Positions 4,354 through 54,861 of a stretch of DNA of 64,000 bases are shown here, in pieces. The notes under the pieces were generated by a model. That model saw nothing but the letters and a program-made list of their open reading frames with translations, was not told the origin of the DNA and ran no database searches. Source of the stretch: Tessaracoccus flavescens (GTDB lineage: Bacteria > Actinomycetota > Actinomycetes > Propionibacteriales > Propionibacteriaceae); NCBI RefSeq assembly GCF_001998865.1, contig NZ_CP019607.1, positions 1,364,001 through 1,428,000 of the forward strand. The letters run 5' to 3'. Within the stretch, counting starts at the first letter, position 1, and each line of letters starts with the position of its first letter. The translations under genes and the position numbers were made by a program.

Positions 4354-4971
4354 GTGACATCGAAAAGTAGACGCGGCCCGCGGGGCGACATCAGCGCAGC
4401 CCTGCTGCTGGACGCCGCTGAGCGTGTGCTCGCCGAGGCCGGAGTCGCGGGGCTGAGCCTTCGACGGGTGGCAAGGGAGGCGGGGATCGCCCCGAACGCC
4501 GTCTACACGTACTTCGATGACATGGCCGACCTCTCCACCGCACTCGCCGACTCCTTCCTGTCGCGCCTTGACCTGACCCAGTTGACGGTGGGCGTTCCCG
4601 AGGACGCACTCCGCGGACTCCTCAAGTCGGCGATGCGCCTGTTCACCGACTCTCCGCACCACGTCGCTTTGCTTGCGGCGCAGCGGGTCGCGGGGCCGAA
4701 CGCGATGAACCTCAACGAAGCCCTCCTCGACTTCTTCATCGAGCGGGTCGGCGTCGAGACCGACCTGGCGGTCGCGTCGACCGGGTTCATCACGGAGTGG
4801 ATCCACGGGTACGCCGCGCTCGCGCCGACCGACGCTCCAACCCCTGCGTTCGAGCGCGCCCTCTCTCGGCTCGATCTGACGCGCTGGCCGCGCACTGTCG
4901 ACATGTTGGGCAGGCAGGACCAGCGGATCAGCGTCGATCTGCTCGTCCGAGCCGTCATCCCCGGCCACTGA
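4354..4971 (+). CDS. TetR/AcrR-family transcriptional regulator
   Basis: A 205-residue protein with a typical TetR N-terminal DNA-binding domain (LLDAAERVLAEAGVAGLSLR, then RVAREAGIAPNAVYTYFDD). A divergent C-terminal ligand-binding domain follows. It starts with GTG 4354, with a TATCAT -10 box ending at 4347, so its message is probably leaderless. It is divergent from the CPBP protease gene at 4347, which it probably represses together with itself through the palindrome at 4316-4332. The ligand cannot be inferred. Confidence 0.9.
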   Translation: MTSKSRRGPRGDISAALLLDAAERVLAEAGVAGLSLRRVAREAGIAPNAVYTYFDDMADLSTALADSFLSRLDLTQLTVGVPEDALRGLLKSAMRLFTDSPHHVALLAAQRVAGPNAMNLNEALLDFFIERVGVETDLAVASTGFITEWIHGYAALAPTDAPTPAFERALSRLDLTRWPRTVDMLGRQDQRISVDLLVRAVIPGH

Positions 4972-5117
4972 TGGGGACGCGGCGCTGCGACAGGCCGATA
5001 CCATGCCGGGGCAAGGCACCATGGGGCCGCTCCAGCGGCAGATCTCCTGCCGCGTACCGGCGCCACAACTCAAGCCAGCCACACGGGTCCTGATCGGGCC
5101 AGCGGGAACCGGATCGC

Positions 5118-5486
5118 TCAGTCGCGTCCGCGCAGCTTCTCGATCGCGCGGCGGTCACGCTTGGTCGGGCGGCCGGTTCCCCGGTCGCGCACCGCGACCC
5201 TGCCCGTCATCTCGTTGATCGGCGGGGGCTTCTCGGGCGTCCGGTCGATGTAGGCGGCCTGAGCGAGCGGGGCGCCGACGCGCTTCTCCAGGGTCGGGTC
5301 GACGACCTCGAGCAGCTTCTCGTCCTGCTCCTTGCGCAACCGCACCTTCTGCCCGGTGACCACGTGCTGTGATGCCTTGGCGAGCTTGTCGTCGACGCGG
5401 ACGTGGCCGCCTCGCACCGCCGCGGTGGCCATCGAGCGGGTCTTGTACATCCGCACGGCCCAGAGCCAGGAATCCAGTCGCGCCAT
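5118..5486 (-). CDS. S4-domain RNA-binding protein (Hsp15-like)
   Basis: A 122-residue basic protein whose first 60 residues form an S4 RNA-binding domain (MARLDSWLWAVRMYKTRSMA, then VRGGHVRVDDKLAKASQHV and VRL). The charged tail ends KRDRRAIEKLRGRD. Relatives of this size (Hsp15/YrfH group) bind stalled 50S subunits carrying nascent chains. Whether this protein does so is inferred from family. The promoter is leaderless: TAAGCT (complement of 5493-5498) ends six bases before the ATG. It is divergent from the DinB-like gene. Confidence 0.88.
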   Translation of the reverse strand: MARLDSWLWAVRMYKTRSMATAAVRGGHVRVDDKLAKASQHVVTGQKVRLRKEQDEKLLEVVDPTLEKRVGAPLAQAAYIDRTPEKPPPINEMTGRVAVRDRGTGRPTKRDRRAIEKLRGRD

Positions 5487-7148: not shown

Positions 7149-8027
7149 ATGAACCCCCTTCAGTCGCTGCGCAACCTGATCGGCTCGGCCATCCGGTCCC
7201 GGGTAGCCGGGCCGGACCCGGAGGAGCGCGAGGCCAAGATCTGGGGCGCCGACGGTGAGCGCTGGCACAGGCCGAGCGACGCGATCTGGAAGGTCAACCG
7301 TGACGCGGCCATGTACGCGGGCGGCATCCGGGCCCTGCTGCTCCAGGCGCTGCACCCGGCTGCGATGGCCGGGGTCGCGGGCCACTCCGGCTACCGCTCC
7401 GACCCCTGGGGACGATTGCAGCGCACGGGCGAGTTCATCGCCATGACGACCTACGGCCCCGTCCCATCCGCGGAGGAGCTGATCGGCCGGATCCGCGCCG
7501 TCCACGAGCGGGTCCGCGGCAAGACAGACGACGGCACGCCTTACCGCGCCTCCGACCCGCACCTGCTCGAGTGGGTGCACGTGGCCGAGACCCAGAGCTT
7601 CCTCGCCGCCTACCAGCACTTCGGCCCTGAGGCTCTCGAGCAGGGCGAGGCCGACCAGTACGTCGCCTCAGCGGCCCCCGTCGGCGAACTGCTCGGAGCG
7701 GTCGACCTCCCCAGGACCGAGGCGGATCTGCTCGCCGTGATCGAGTCGTACCGCCCGGAGCTGCGCGCCTCACCCGCCGCGCTCGACACGGTCGACTTCC
7801 TGCTCAGGACCCCACCCGTCCCGTGGCCGGGCAAGCCCGGCTACTGGATGCTCGCCGCCGGGGCGATCTCGACGCTGCCGGTCTGGGCGCGCGAACTGCT
7901 CGGCCTTCCGACGTCGAAGTGGTTCGACCGCCTCGTCGGGTTGCCACTCGGCCGCCTCGCCACCCGGGTCGCCGGCTGGGCGATCGCGACGCCGAGAACC
8001 TCCGCCGAGCGCAAAGTGGCGGCGTGA
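7149..8027 (+). CDS. MpaB-family oxygenase-like protein (DUF2236)
   Basis: A 292-residue protein of the DUF2236 family, related to the rubber oxygenase Lcp and fungal MpaB. Family marks include GGIRALLLQALHPAAMAGVA, followed by HSGYRSDPWGRLQRTGEFIA, and the histidine segment HLLEWVHVAETQSFLAAYQ. Conserved His and Arg residues are thought to bind heme in characterised relatives. The function here is unknown. The ATG is preceded six bases upstream by TAGGCT (7137-7142), a leaderless promoter. The stop overlaps the GTG of the DUF1990 gene (GTGA at 8024-8027), so the next genes are probably co-transcribed. Confidence 0.85.
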   Translation: MNPLQSLRNLIGSAIRSRVAGPDPEEREAKIWGADGERWHRPSDAIWKVNRDAAMYAGGIRALLLQALHPAAMAGVAGHSGYRSDPWGRLQRTGEFIAMTTYGPVPSAEELIGRIRAVHERVRGKTDDGTPYRASDPHLLEWVHVAETQSFLAAYQHFGPEALEQGEADQYVASAAPVGELLGAVDLPRTEADLLAVIESYRPELRASPAALDTVDFLLRTPPVPWPGKPGYWMLAAGAISTLPVWARELLGLPTSKWFDRLVGLPLGRLATRVAGWAIATPRTSAERKVAA

Positions 8028-8455
8028 GCCAGGACCTCGACCGCCTCATGGTGCGGGAGCGGATCGGGGACTTGCGCGACTTCGGCCCGCCGCCGACCGG
8101 CTGCTGGGGCCGGACCTGCATCGCGCGGTCGGCCTCGGAGTCGACGCGGCCTCCCCCTCCCGGCACCGGGCGAGCGGCTGGTGCTTCGGCTGGGTCCAAT
8201 TTCGGCCCAGTCCTGGTGACCTCCGCGGTGCGCGACGACCGCACGGCCTCATCGACCTACGCCGCGCTGCCGGGCCATCCGGAGCGCGGGTGGGAGAGGT
8301 TCACCGTCGAGCGACGCGAGGACGGGACCTGGATCGAGGTCGAGGCACACCCCAAGCCTGCGACGTGGTGGTCGAGGCTCGGCGGACCCGCCACGTACGC
8401 GATCCAACGCTGGGTGACCCGGAGATACGTGTCCGCCGCGAAGGGCGACCGGTGA
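8024..8455 (+). pseudogene. DUF1990-family gene broken by frameshifts
   Basis: The C-terminal half is a clear DUF1990 domain (YAALPGHPERGWERFTVER, PATWWSRLGGPATYAIQR, then WVTRRYVSA). The open frame upstream (about 8090-8215) is low-complexity Pro/Ser/Arg sequence. The missing family sequence appears in the other two frames: LHRAVGLGVDAAS near 8116, and LPLPAPGERLVLRLGPISAQ near 8150-8210. At least two compensating indels are therefore needed to restore the family domain. The gene may still yield a protein, since one frame is open from GTG 8024 to 8455, but its middle would be nonsense. It overlaps both neighbours by GTGA junctions. Confidence 0.7.
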
Positions 8456-51040: not shown

Positions 51041-51413
51041 TCAGCGCCAGGGCGACAGTTCGCCCAGGGCCGCCACGGCCTCGATCTCGATCCTGAAGCG
51101 CTGATCGACCAGCGCCGAGACGACGACGAGGGAGGCGGCCGGGGCGGGGTGCGGCAGCCGCTGCCGCCGGACCGCGCGCAACGCCGTCCAGGTCGGAGCT
51201 GTCGGTGAGGAAGGAGGTCACCTTCACGAGCCGATCCATGCCGACGCTCCGCTCGCCGAGCAGCCGCTCGATCCGGTCGAGGCAGGCGGCCGTCTGGGCC
51301 CCGATGTCGTCGCGCACCTCGCCGCCGACCAACGGCACCTGCCCGGAGATGAAGAGGAGCGGCGGCTGCGCGAGGCGCGAGTCGCTGAAGACGGGGCGGG
51401 TGGAGTCGGTCAT
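51041..51413 (-). pseudogene. RidA/YjgF-family gene with a mid-gene frameshift
   Basis: From ATG 51413, with GAGGGG upstream, the frame gives a good RidA N-terminus (QPPLLFISGQVPLVGGEVRD, DIGAQTAACLDRIERLLGER, VKVTSFLTDSSDLDGV). It then becomes an Ala/Arg/Pro-rich frame. The remaining half is found in another frame: APAASLVVVSALVDQRFRIE, then IEAVAALGELSPWR and a stop at 51041. This includes the family's C-terminal IEIEAVA strand. The length from start to stop is 373 bases, one more than a multiple of three. A single insertion near 51170-51190 would explain it, so an assembly error is possible. Confidence 0.8.
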
Positions 51414-51582
51414 GGGATCCCCTCTCGTGGGCGACCACACACTCCTTCCGGAGCCGTTCACCCGTGTCGTTGTGTGAGCCGGACAACCGCGCGCGACAGC
51501 CGTTGTGCGGGAGCAACAAGACGTCAGCCGACGACGCCTACCGCTTGGGCGACCAGCCGCGCGGTGGCGTACCTTAGAGCCC

Positions 51583-52359
51583 ATGGCTTCAGCTTTGATC
51601 ACCGGTGGCACCTCGGGCATCGGGCTCGCTTTCGCGCGCGAGCTCGCGGCACGGGGAATGGACCTCATCCTCGTCGCGCGTGACGAGGCGAGGCTCGAGT
51701 CCGTCGCCGCCGAGCTGACCGAGGTCCACGGCGTCGCCGTCGAGGTCCTTCCCGCCGACCTTTCCGTCCGGGAGGACGTGCTGCGCGTGGCCGAGCGCCT
51801 CGAGGATCCGGCCCGGCCCGTCGAGTGGCTGGTCAACAACGCGGGCTTCGGCCTGCACTCGACCGTGCTAGATCCCGCCGACATCGACCTGCACGCGAAG
51901 GCGCTCGACGTGATGTGCCTCGCCATGCTGATCCTCGGCGGCGCCGCGGGGCGCGCCATGCGCAGCCGCGGCCACGGGCACATCGTCAATGTCGCCTCGT
52001 CATCTGCCGCCATCTTCACCGGCAACTACTCCGCCATCAAGGCGTGGGCCCGCACCTATTCGACGGGCCTCGCACTCGAGCTGCACGGCACCGGCGTCAA
52101 GGTCACCGGCCTACTTCCGGGCTGGGTCCGCACCGAGTTCCACGGCCGCGCGGGCATCAACGCGAGCAAGCTGCCCAACATCGTGTGGATCGACCCCGAC
52201 AAGCTCGTCCGCACGGCCATCGAGGATGCCGAGAAGGGCCGCATCGAGTCGATTCCCGACTGGAAGTGGCGCCTCGCCATGTTCATCGGCGACCACGGCC
52301 CCCGCGGCCTCGCCCGTTTCGTCTCCCGCAAGTTGACCGCTTCGCGGAAGCAGCACTGA
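51583..52359 (+). CDS. Short-chain dehydrogenase, candidate acyl/alkyl-DHAP reductase of an ether-lipid operon
   Basis: A 258-residue classical SDR with TGGTSGIGLAFARELAARGM, VEWLVNNAGFGLHSTVLDPA, GHIVNVASSSAAIFTGNYSA and the YSAIKAWARTYS active-site helix. The C-terminal part is basic (FVSRKLTASRKQH), perhaps membrane-peripheral. Relatives act on lipid-linked ketones. Being first in an operon with a PlsC acyltransferase and an AGPS-like enzyme, it could reduce acyl- or alkyl-DHAP. That step in animals is done by an SDR of the DHRS7B/Ayr1 group. TACCTT (51570-51575) lies seven bases before the ATG (leaderless). Confidence 0.87.
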   Translation: MASALITGGTSGIGLAFARELAARGMDLILVARDEARLESVAAELTEVHGVAVEVLPADLSVREDVLRVAERLEDPARPVEWLVNNAGFGLHSTVLDPADIDLHAKALDVMCLAMLILGGAAGRAMRSRGHGHIVNVASSSAAIFTGNYSAIKAWARTYSTGLALELHGTGVKVTGLLPGWVRTEFHGRAGINASKLPNIVWIDPDKLVRTAIEDAEKGRIESIPDWKWRLAMFIGDHGPRGLARFVSRKLTASRKQH

Positions 52360-52360
52360 C

Positions 52361-53155
52361 GTGGACCTCGAGCCGAGCAACAGCCGCTACACCTCGCGCG
52401 TCCAGGCGACCACCCGCCAGACGGCGCAGTTCCTGCTGCTCAAGCCCGCGCTCAGCCGCCTGCTCAAGATCCATGTCCACGGGCTCGCCAACCTCGACGG
52501 CCTCGAGGGCGCCTTCGCCGTCTTCGGCAACCATTCGTCCCACCTCGACGCCCCGCTGATCCTCTGCTCGTTGCCCAACCGGCTCTCCCGCTACGTCGCC
52601 ACGGGCGCGGCGGGTGACTTCTTCTTCGGCAACTGGGTCAAGGCGATCTCCATGTCGCTGTTCATGAACGCCTTCGCGATCGACCGCGGAAAGGGCGGAA
52701 AGGGACGAAGGGGCATGGCGGGCCAACTGCTGTCCGACGGGGTCCCGATCCTGCTCTTCCCCGAAGGCACCCGCTCCCGCACCGGCGCGATGGGGCCGTT
52801 CATCCCCGGCGTCGCATCCCTGTGCGTCTCCCGCGGCGTCCCGGCCCTTCCTGTGGCGTTGGTCGGTGCCTACGAGGCGTGGCCGTCGAACCAGAAGCAC
52901 CTGCCGAAGGGCCGGCCCGAGGTGCACGTGGTGTTCGGTCGCCCGATGGTCCCGTACCCGGGTGAGATCGCGCTGGAGTTCAACGAGCGGATGCGCCGTC
53001 AGGTTCTTGAACTGCACGACACGACGGCGCGGGCGTACGGTAAAAAGACACTGGCAGAGTACGAGCGGACAGAGGCCCTCCACCGGGCCGAACAGACAGA
53101 GATTGCCTCCTTGGTCGAAGACGCCAGGGAACAGGCTGACAAGCAGGAGGACTGA
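52361..53155 (+). CDS. PlsC-type glycerolipid acyltransferase
   Basis: A 264-residue LPLAT-family acyltransferase. The catalytic HX4D motif is His58 to Asp63 (FGNHSSHLDAP), and the acyl-acceptor motif is FPEGTRSR at 133-140. Other blocks are GVASLCVSRGVPALPVALVG and VVFGRPMVPYPGE. A C-terminal charged helix (ERTEALHRAEQTEIASLVED) follows. It transfers an acyl group to a glycerol-phosphate type acceptor. It starts with GTG 52361, one base after the SDR stop, and its own stop overlaps the AGPS-like start. In this setting the acceptor might be dihydroxyacetone phosphate. Confidence 0.9.
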   Translation: MDLEPSNSRYTSRVQATTRQTAQFLLLKPALSRLLKIHVHGLANLDGLEGAFAVFGNHSSHLDAPLILCSLPNRLSRYVATGAAGDFFFGNWVKAISMSLFMNAFAIDRGKGGKGRRGMAGQLLSDGVPILLFPEGTRSRTGAMGPFIPGVASLCVSRGVPALPVALVGAYEAWPSNQKHLPKGRPEVHVVFGRPMVPYPGEIALEFNERMRRQVLELHDTTARAYGKKTLAEYERTEALHRAEQTEIASLVEDAREQADKQED

Positions 53156-54861
53156 TGATCGAGGGCGTCAAGCAGCAGAAGTGGTGGGGCTGGGGCGAAG
53201 AGGGCCTCGCCTACCGCTACGAGGACAAGCCCAAGTTCCCGGGCTTCGTCCAGAAGATGGTGGGCGTCGACATCACCCGGCCGGTCAAGCCGATCCCCCC
53301 GTTCTCCTCGCTCGACGTTCCCGCCTCCGAACTGTCCGACGAGCTGCGCGCGAAGTTCGTCGACGCGATCGGTGAGAAGTACGTCCAGACCGATGACGAG
53401 ACCCGCGTGGTGCACGCCTACGGCAAGGGCGTCCGCGACCTGATCCGCATCCGCAAGGGCGACCTCGGCCGCGTCCCCGACGTCGTGCTCTACCCCGGCA
53501 CCCAGGAGGAGGTCGAGGCCATCGTCGACGCGTCGGTCGAGGCCGACGCCGTCCTGATCCCCTTCGGCGGCGGCTCCAACATCGTCGCCGCCCTCGAGGC
53601 GCAGCCCGGCGAGACCAGGCAGGTCATCTCCGTGAACCTCGGCCGGATGAGCAAGGTTCTGGAGATCGACGAGACCTCCGGCCTCGCCCACATCCAGGCG
53701 GGCGTCTTCGGGCCCGACATGGAGGACCAGCTGAACGCCCGCGGCTGGACGATGGGACATCACCCCGACTCGTTCGTCTGGTCGACGCTTGGCGGCTGGA
53801 TCGCGACCCGCAGCTCCGGCATGCAGTCCGACAAGTACGGCGACATCGCCGACATCGTCCGCGGCCTCACAATGGTCATGCCCGGCCAGGTGCTCCAGCT
53901 TCGCCCCCTCCCGTCCAGCTCCTCCGGCCCGAGCGTCCGCGAGATGGTGCTCGGTTCCGAGGGCCGCCTCGGCGTGATCACCTCTGCGTGGGTCAACGTG
54001 CACCGCATCCCCGAGGTGCGCGAACTCCAGGCCTACTTCTTCCCGACCTACGAGGACGGCCTCAAGGCATGTGAGCAGATCGTCTCCTCCGACGCCTCGG
54101 TGATGATGGCGCGCGTCTCCGACCCGATCGAGACGCAGTACATCATGGCCAACGGCAAGAAGTCGGGCCGCGTCTCGTCGCTCGCCAACAAGGCCATCCA
54201 GAAGATCATGCTGCAGAAGGGCTGGGACCTCGAGAAGATCGCGATGAGCTTCATCGGTTTCGAGGGCAGCGCCAACCACGTGCGCTACGAGAAGGGTCTC
54301 GTCGGCAAGATCGTCAAGGACAACGGCGGCATGGGCGTCGGCAAGGGCCCAGGAACGCTGTACGACCAGAAGAAGTACGACACCCCCTACATCCGCGACT
54401 TCATGCTCGACCGCGGCCTGATCTGCGACGTCTCGGAGACGACGACGCCGTGGAAATACGCGGCGGAGATCCACGCGAAGATCGTCGACCGCTTCGCCAA
54501 GGCGATGGACGACCTCGGTGTGCGAGGCGTCGTGTTCTGCCACCTCAGCCACTCGTACCACTCGGGCGCCTGCCAGTACTTCACCTTCGCCATCGCCGAC
54601 GACTCCGACAACCAGGAGGCGACCTACGACGCCGCGAAGCGGGTCATCCAGCAGTCGTTCATGGACTTCCACGGCACCGTCTCGCACCACCACGGTGTCG
54701 GCGAGGAGCACAGCCCCTGGATGGACCAGGACATCTCGCCTGCTGGCGTGTTCATCCAGCGCAAGCTCTTCGAGGGCGTCGACCCCGGCCGCAACCTGAA
54801 CCCGGGCAAGATCATCCACGACGGCGAGCCCGGCATCTCGTCGAACTCCAAGGACGCCTGA
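53155..54861 (+). CDS. FAD-dependent alkylglycerone-phosphate synthase (AGPS)-like enzyme
   Basis: A 568-residue vanillyl-alcohol-oxidase-fold flavoprotein. The FAD-binding loop is VLIPFGGGSNIVAALEA (134-150). The region TLGGWIATRSSGMQSDKYGD (211-230) closely follows the AGPS family pattern. The FETS/PW-like DVSETTTPWKYA is at 425-436, the acceptor-site HSYHSGACQYFTFA at 466-479, and SHHHGVGEEHSPWM at 510-523, with the histidine triplet needed by AGPS. The end DPGRNLNPGKII is family-typical. AGPS exchanges the acyl chain of acyl-DHAP for an alkyl group, making the ether bond. AGGAGG lies four bases before the ATG at 53155. It is the last gene of the SDR-PlsC-AGPS operon. Confidence 0.9.
   Translation: MIEGVKQQKWWGWGEEGLAYRYEDKPKFPGFVQKMVGVDITRPVKPIPPFSSLDVPASELSDELRAKFVDAIGEKYVQTDDETRVVHAYGKGVRDLIRIRKGDLGRVPDVVLYPGTQEEVEAIVDASVEADAVLIPFGGGSNIVAALEAQPGETRQVISVNLGRMSKVLEIDETSGLAHIQAGVFGPDMEDQLNARGWTMGHHPDSFVWSTLGGWIATRSSGMQSDKYGDIADIVRGLTMVMPGQVLQLRPLPSSSSGPSVREMVLGSEGRLGVITSAWVNVHRIPEVRELQAYFFPTYEDGLKACEQIVSSDASVMMARVSDPIETQYIMANGKKSGRVSSLANKAIQKIMLQKGWDLEKIAMSFIGFEGSANHVRYEKGLVGKIVKDNGGMGVGKGPGTLYDQKKYDTPYIRDFMLDRGLICDVSETTTPWKYAAEIHAKIVDRFAKAMDDLGVRGVVFCHLSHSYHSGACQYFTFAIADDSDNQEATYDAAKRVIQQSFMDFHGTVSHHHGVGEEHSPWMDQDISPAGVFIQRKLFEGVDPGRNLNPGKIIHDGEPGISSNSKDA

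Follow-up and report, generated by a model that had tools for sequence, protein, structure and literature searches.

A stretch of 64,000 nucleotides from Tessaracoccus flavescens (contig NZ_CP019607.1, positions 1,364,001 to 1,428,000), referred to here as the window, contains a three-gene operon that probably encodes the enzymes at the ether-forming core of a pathway to alkyl glycerolipids in actinobacteria. The genes encode a short-chain dehydrogenase/reductase (SDR), a PlsC-type acyltransferase and a flavoenzyme of the alkylglycerone-phosphate synthase (AGPS) type, and comparison of their sequences and neighborhoods suggests that actinobacteria may have an ether-lipid route resembling that of animals. 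The operon has the following features, the coordinates being those of the window:

51583..52359, + strand: SDR gene, ATG start, 258 amino acids (sequence and list of open reading frames)
52361..53155, + strand: PlsC gene, GTG start, TGA stop at 53153-53155, 264 amino acids
53155..54861, + strand: AGPS-type flavoenzyme gene, ATG start, 568 amino acids
51570..51575, + strand: TACCTT, resembling a -10 element, 13 nucleotides (nt) 5' of the SDR ATG and presumably part of a leaderless promoter

In the proposed pathway, a fatty acyl-CoA reductase fused to a HAD domain (FAR-HAD) and encoded elsewhere in the genome would convert acyl-CoA to fatty alcohol, PlsC would acylate dihydroxyacetone phosphate (DHAP), AGPS would exchange the acyl chain for the alcohol via an FAD N5 adduct to give 1-O-alkyl-DHAP, and the SDR would reduce the ketone to 1-O-alkyl-glycerol-3-phosphate. 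Other acyltransferases and the usual head-group enzymes could later produce alkyl-acyl phospholipids or glycolipids. According to PMC3509576, in the AGPS reaction acyl-DHAP loses a C1 proton, binds flavin N5, frees the fatty acid and accepts the alcohol. The two AGPS substrates, acyl-DHAP and an alcohol, would be the predicted products of PlsC and FAR-HAD, and the ketone product would suit the SDR.

Family assignment of the flavoenzyme

The 568-residue protein contains the Pfam domains FAD_binding_4 (1e-31) and FAD-oxidase_C (4e-33), which are common to AGPS and the D-2-hydroxyacid (lactate, glycolate) dehydrogenases, and it matches the GlcD model TIGR00387 with 114.4 bits. That it is such a dehydrogenase is nevertheless highly improbable, as this score is far from the model cut-off of 567.9 bits, and in a search of solved chains the protein scored 388 bits with Dictyostelium AGPS (2uuu) and 264 bits with guinea-pig AGPS (4bby), whereas the next chains, a putative oxidoreductase and a D-lactate dehydrogenase, reached 78.5 and 75 bits, respectively. 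The similarity to the AGPS fold includes the N-terminal part beyond the dehydrogenase core. Identity to the Dictyostelium enzyme is 40% over 477 aligned residues, and to the guinea-pig enzyme 28% over 535.

Alignment demonstrated that every one of the guinea-pig positions H300, D303, T309, R419, R515, Y578 and H615-H617 is retained in the window protein, as H202, D205, T211, R320, R414, Y475 and H511-H513. Residues R320, R414 and Y475 also correspond to R352, R447 and Y508, which are important in Dictyostelium AGPS (PMC3509576); this correspondence assumes an offset of 3 between the chain index and the published numbers, which fits all three residues. At each of the positions R419, R515, Y578, H615 and H616, seven of eight outgroup rows differ from AGPS, and H617 is common to all eight. 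An earlier note on this DNA, made from the sequence alone, had proposed AGPS on the basis of FAD-binding and histidine motifs, and these are indeed present: GGGSN at 138, GGWIATR at 213 and SHHHGVG at 510, with SSGM and HSYHSGAC read directly in the translation.

Phylogenetic analysis agrees with this assignment. In a careful tree of 42 chosen rows, 38 AGPS-type rows are separated from 4 dehydrogenase-type rows with support of 100/100, which is the only tree split that we claim, and in a quick tree of 110 rows the window group joins eukaryotic AGPS (SH-aLRT 98), a grouping that the careful tree supports weakly (61/70). Bit scores, the GlcD cut-off, the residues and the tree split together reject the dehydrogenase identity. 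Neither of the first two outcomes that the earlier note had named as counting against AGPS, placement in a dehydrogenase clade and loss of FAD or His residues, was observed. The nearest neighbors of the protein, among the best 120 matches listed, are from Tessaracoccus aquimaris (91%) and T. bendigoensis (87%).

Conservation of the operon and its reductase partner

The family sample comprised 147 genomes of Propionibacteriaceae, 79 of which encode AGPS at E<=1e-60. From AGPS-positive genomes, 30 loci of this family and 9 of other families of the order were examined; AGPS is of the window type in 28 of the family loci and of the guinea-pig type in the other two. Homologs of all three genes lie on one strand in 25 of the 28 window-type loci (SDR and PlsC being 3.2-4.4 kb apart in 3 of the 25). 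The trio, which the earlier note had proposed to look for in related genomes, is therefore conserved, and a chance neighborhood is rejected. In the 9 loci of other families neither SDR nor PlsC was detected at E<=1e-5. A 4-nt overlap joins PlsC to AGPS in 17 of these 25 loci, and a metagenome protein of 798 amino acids (P0196, 2 member sequences) is a fusion of PlsC to AGPS.

One of the two guinea-pig-type loci has an SDR. In this locus (L052), AGPS scores 476 bits with 4bby and 282 with 2uuu and is 43% identical to the guinea-pig enzyme, and the adjacent SDR, 55% identical to the window SDR, is followed by FAR-HAD. Two AGPS types sharing the same partners argue for a part of SDR and FAR-HAD in the ether reaction. 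The second guinea-pig-type genome (L051) has no SDR nearby, and its FAR is on another contig.

The FAR-HAD protein is the divergent neighbor of the SDR in two loci without PlsC (L033 and L034), where it has an N-terminal FAR domain (NAD_binding_4) and a C-terminal HAD domain. Its counterpart in T. flavescens (G000:C1:3316920-3319130) is 42% identical over query residues 6-737. This T. flavescens FAR-HAD matches the fatty acyl-CoA reductase 7eoz (8e-42, residues 4-497) and NAD_binding_4 (PF07993, 151.6 bits), and the C-terminal Sterile domain (PF03015) remains under its cut-off (30.2 of 35.4 bits).

At thresholds of E<=1e-60 for AGPS and E<=1e-40 for FAR, the family sample contains 76 genomes with both proteins, 3 with AGPS alone (G117, G169 and G192), 1 with FAR alone (G061, 82% complete) and 67 with neither, although these genomes are related by descent and the Fisher value of this co-occurrence thus overstates the evidence. 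Counted by genus, AGPS and FAR are each found in 20 of 29. We also analyzed 296 genomes at the class level with stricter thresholds (AGPS E<=1e-120, window type only; FAR E<=1e-100), finding AGPS in 35, FAR in 65, both in 31 and neither in 227. FAR is missing from four of the AGPS genomes, all of them drafts in 560-880 contigs, and in 20 of the 31 genomes with both the two genes start at most 10 kb apart. FAR therefore accompanies window-type AGPS nearly always.

Among named-contig loci, sampled as the best 80 of 581, FAR-HAD is present in 21, all of them with SDR and AGPS and 17 also with PlsC, from Kocuria, Schumannella, Phytoactinopolyspora, Georgenia (all four on one strand), Plantibacter, Brachybacterium, Dermabacter, Salinibacterium, Microbacterium and others.

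Several further observations concern these genes. Outside the window, FAR-HAD of T. flavescens is followed by a LarA-like gene, which matches the LarAH14/15/16 model under its cut-off, and an overlapping gene for a 263-residue protein (L066, 8816-13489, on G000:C1). Of 13 other family loci, 8 keep the FAR-LarA order, including one truncated at the end of its contig. The 263-residue protein appears PlsC-like by eye yet has no Pfam match, and a gene at about the same place in L152 matches the operon PlsC (34%). Clusters of PlsC, AGPS and SDR in another gene order occur in Verrucomicrobiota, KSB1 and one further bacterium (L110, L111, L113 and L118), where PlsC and SDR are only 26-31% identical; the set may have been put together earlier there, or independently. 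In another genome of the same genus (G008, C1:1697454-1699107), about 60% complete, AGPS matches are fragmented and some contain stops, indicating a pseudogene or poor assembly.

Gene layout, SDR and PlsC

The SDR and PlsC genes are separated by one base, and at the junction TGATG one base is common to the PlsC stop and the AGPS start, so that the end-to-end arrangement claimed earlier is directly visible. The presumed leaderless promoter in the same claim is also supported in relatives: TANNNT occurs 12-14 nt 5' of the SDR start in 25 of 27 relatives having 60 nt of upstream sequence, compared to 2 occurrences at the other 52 offsets summed. For PlsC it is found at offset 12 in 12 of 25, and for AGPS in none of 30. 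These offset counts, being motif counts rather than mapped transcripts, support a putative leaderless transcript starting at SDR and, in some relatives, a second leaderless start at PlsC, with AGPS likely co-transcribed with PlsC. The next gene 3' of the operon is yaaA, as identified by Pfam. Divergent from the operon, at about 51050-51415 on the - strand, is an open reading frame that appears RidA-like by eye, its N- and C-terminal parts lying in two frames, which suggests either a frameshift in the gene or an error in the sequence.

The SDR (adh_short PF00106, 7e-34) has the YxxxK and glycine nucleotide-binding motifs of a classical SDR (TGGTSGIG, ARD 32, NNAG 85 and YSAIK 149-153), and from its position we propose that it is an NADPH-dependent acyl/alkyl-DHAP reductase, the activity of DHRS7B and AYR1. 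Similarly, position suggests that PlsC (PF01553, 9e-17, 61.6 bits; PDB 5kym, 8e-10), which has a PlsC/GNPAT-type domain with NHSSHLD 57 (HX4D) and FPEGTR 133, is a DHAP acyltransferase. The earlier note had seen candidates for all three ether-pathway activities in the operon; the AGPS part stood through family membership, and PlsC and SDR receive their proposed roles from position only.

Alternative explanations

A number of observations weigh against the proposed pathway. The FAR-HAD gene lies on the same contig about 1.9 Mb from the operon and is thus unlinked; the trio that the earlier note took as a candidate ether route cannot by itself make an ether, since it needs a fatty alcohol, which this distant reductase would supply. 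FAR has other uses too, since 34 of the 65 FAR-positive class genomes lack window-type AGPS. The careful tree only weakly separates window and eukaryotic AGPS from mycobacterial-type proteins (61/70), and the alternative grouping of the window proteins with the mycobacterial type was not rejected (p-AU 0.36). SDR and AGPS occur without a neighboring PlsC in 3 of the 28 family loci (L033-L035, one sister group), and no window-type PlsC was found near AGPS in Frankia (L087), Actinoplanes (L083) and Kineococcus (L092). The best NCBIfam match of the SDR is the mycolate reductase NF040690, far under its cut-off (138.7 of 380 bits). Finally, disruption of the AGPS homolog of Myxococcus xanthus lowered ether lipids only slightly (PMC9131029), and phosphatidylglycerol with an alkyl ether is reported in Cutibacterium (PMC11237483), which may or may not encode AGPS.

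Some of these observations could be explained by another division of labor in the same pathway, in which PlsC of the operon would acylate 1-alkyl-glycerol-3-phosphate at sn-2 and a different acyltransferase of the genome would supply acyl-DHAP. We consider this possible but doubtful. It is consistent with the loci that lack PlsC, with a match of the operon PlsC to TIGR00530, the 1-acylglycerol-3-phosphate acyltransferase model (45 of 103 bits, under the cut-off), and with two other PF01553 proteins of the genome, which outscore the operon PlsC (95.9 and 94.5 vs 63.5 bits) and could otherwise serve ordinary phosphatidate synthesis. The PlsC/AGPS overlap and the P0196 fusion fit PlsC feeding AGPS, although a later step would look alike. 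A different substrate is still less likely: the ether would be made with DHAP, but with an alcohol other than a plain fatty one (isoprenoid, hydroxylated or desaturated, for instance), and the SDR would act on the chain rather than the DHAP ketone. The mycolate reductase match and the desaturase-like genes D1 and D2, which flank FAR in 10 of the 17 four-gene loci, would agree with such a pathway, whereas FAR-HAD matches fatty acyl-CoA reductase over residues 4-497 and the ethers reported in the family bear alkyl chains (PMC11237483).

Relation to known ether-lipid systems

The proposed alkyl-glycerolipid pathway would share its key enzyme with eukaryotes, the fold, FAD domains and listed residues being the same. 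However, the window enzyme is bacterial, and its gene shares an operon with those for an acyltransferase and a reductase; the eukaryotic enzyme bears a peroxisomal signal (PMC3509576). Compared by description, a bacterial parallel is the M. xanthus operon MXAN_1676-MXAN_1674, which encodes an AGPS homolog, a FAR1-like/acyltransferase protein and a NAD-dependent protein. There FAR and acyltransferase form one protein and the third is of the epimerase/dehydratase type, in contrast to the classical SDR, separate PlsC and FAR-HAD fusion observed here; the main ether-lipid route of M. xanthus is ElbD (PMC9131029). Homologs of agps have been reported in Actinobacteria (PMC11868695), and no description of an actinobacterial SDR-PlsC-AGPS operon appeared among the open-licence PMC papers listed in our searches, which says nothing on other publications. 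With an AGPS operon known in Myxococcus and the set present in many Actinomycetes, the route is not unique to the window bacterium.

Mycobacterial-type AGPS-like proteins (Mycobacterium, Rhodococcus, Nocardia, Streptomyces and others) are about 33% identical to the window AGPS and have the same HHH, R, R and Y residues, but unlike it they lack the D303 aspartate in all 41 tree rows (39 Q, 2 E). The flanks examined in their loci (L119-L149) contain no FAR-HAD or PlsC match, and the SDR matches in them, in L120, L121, L139 and L144, are all weak (28-31%) and distant.

The first lipids with ether-linked alkyl chains to be found were sugar derivatives from Propionibacterium propionicum (PMC11237483), now Arachnia propionica of the Propionibacteriaceae, and a 2003 JBC paper on its alkyl-ether glycolipids is cited in PMC11237483 and PMC5328823. 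Five Arachnia sp. entries with MAG names have window-type AGPS (78-85% identity) among the best 120 matches listed. No A. propionica AGPS was found among the best 120 matches listed per protein search, and therefore the reported glycolipids are tied to these genes by family only.

The anaerobic plasmalogen synthase PlsA and the glycerol ester reductase Ger are likewise tied to bacterial ether glycerolipids, but unlike AGPS they work on a lipid whose acyl ester is already present; the pls genes are stated to occur in Propionibacteriales (PMC9702350, PMC11868695), and Ger and PlsA products are indistinguishable by homology (PMC11868695). The genome of T. flavescens has no match to DUF2229 (the control was positive in 4 of 14), and an anaerobic PlsA/Ger route is thus not supported in it. 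We take this domain to be a marker of PlsA/Ger-type proteins, although not a specific one; the domain check covered one of the 80 positives, a partial protein with BcrAD_BadFG and DUF2229 (L067). In the family AGPS and DUF2229 are anticorrelated: 22 genomes have both, 57 AGPS alone, 58 DUF2229 alone and 10 neither, although kinship among these genomes would again inflate any p-value. These data give indirect support only to the earlier suggestion that the route tolerates oxygen and differs from the anaerobic one.

No match to PF10520 (CarF/PEDS1) was found in the T. flavescens genome, but the control genomes were equally silent, so that this does not demonstrate absence. The genome encodes D1, similar to diiron acyl-ACP desaturases, and an adjacent gene that appears D2-like by eye (G000:C1, about 1853860-1855543; L176, 4860-6543). 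D1 has the acyl-ACP-desaturase fold with invariant E48, E80xxH83, E144 and E174xxH177, and D2 is its paralog; the pair flanks FAR-HAD in Micrococcales ether clusters, and L106 contains D1/D2-like genes at 4543-5352 and 7609-8412. Both are candidates for desaturating the alkyl chain or the ether bond. It is conceivable, though we think it improbable, that true plasmalogens are produced in aerobic actinobacteria through AGPS, with the soluble diiron desaturase D1, unrelated to CarF/PEDS1, and its paralog D2 acting at the end of the route. D1 with D2 would then introduce the 1'-double bond, or else desaturate the alkyl chain, once the ether has formed or while it forms, and in the family the oxygen-using and anaerobic routes would be largely mutually exclusive.

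If the proposed pathway is correct, DHAP/AGPS chemistry, usually tied to peroxisomes and tentatively to myxobacteria, would be a lipid route in many Actinomycetes, encoded by a compact gene set open to deletion and assay. It would provide genes for the type of alkyl-ether lipid described from propionic acid bacteria, and D303 versus Q together with the gene neighbors would separate likely AGPS from the AGPS-like proteins pooled in homology surveys. The Propionibacteriaceae would then be a single bacterial family in which ether routes that tolerate oxygen can be compared with anaerobic ones as they occur in nature.

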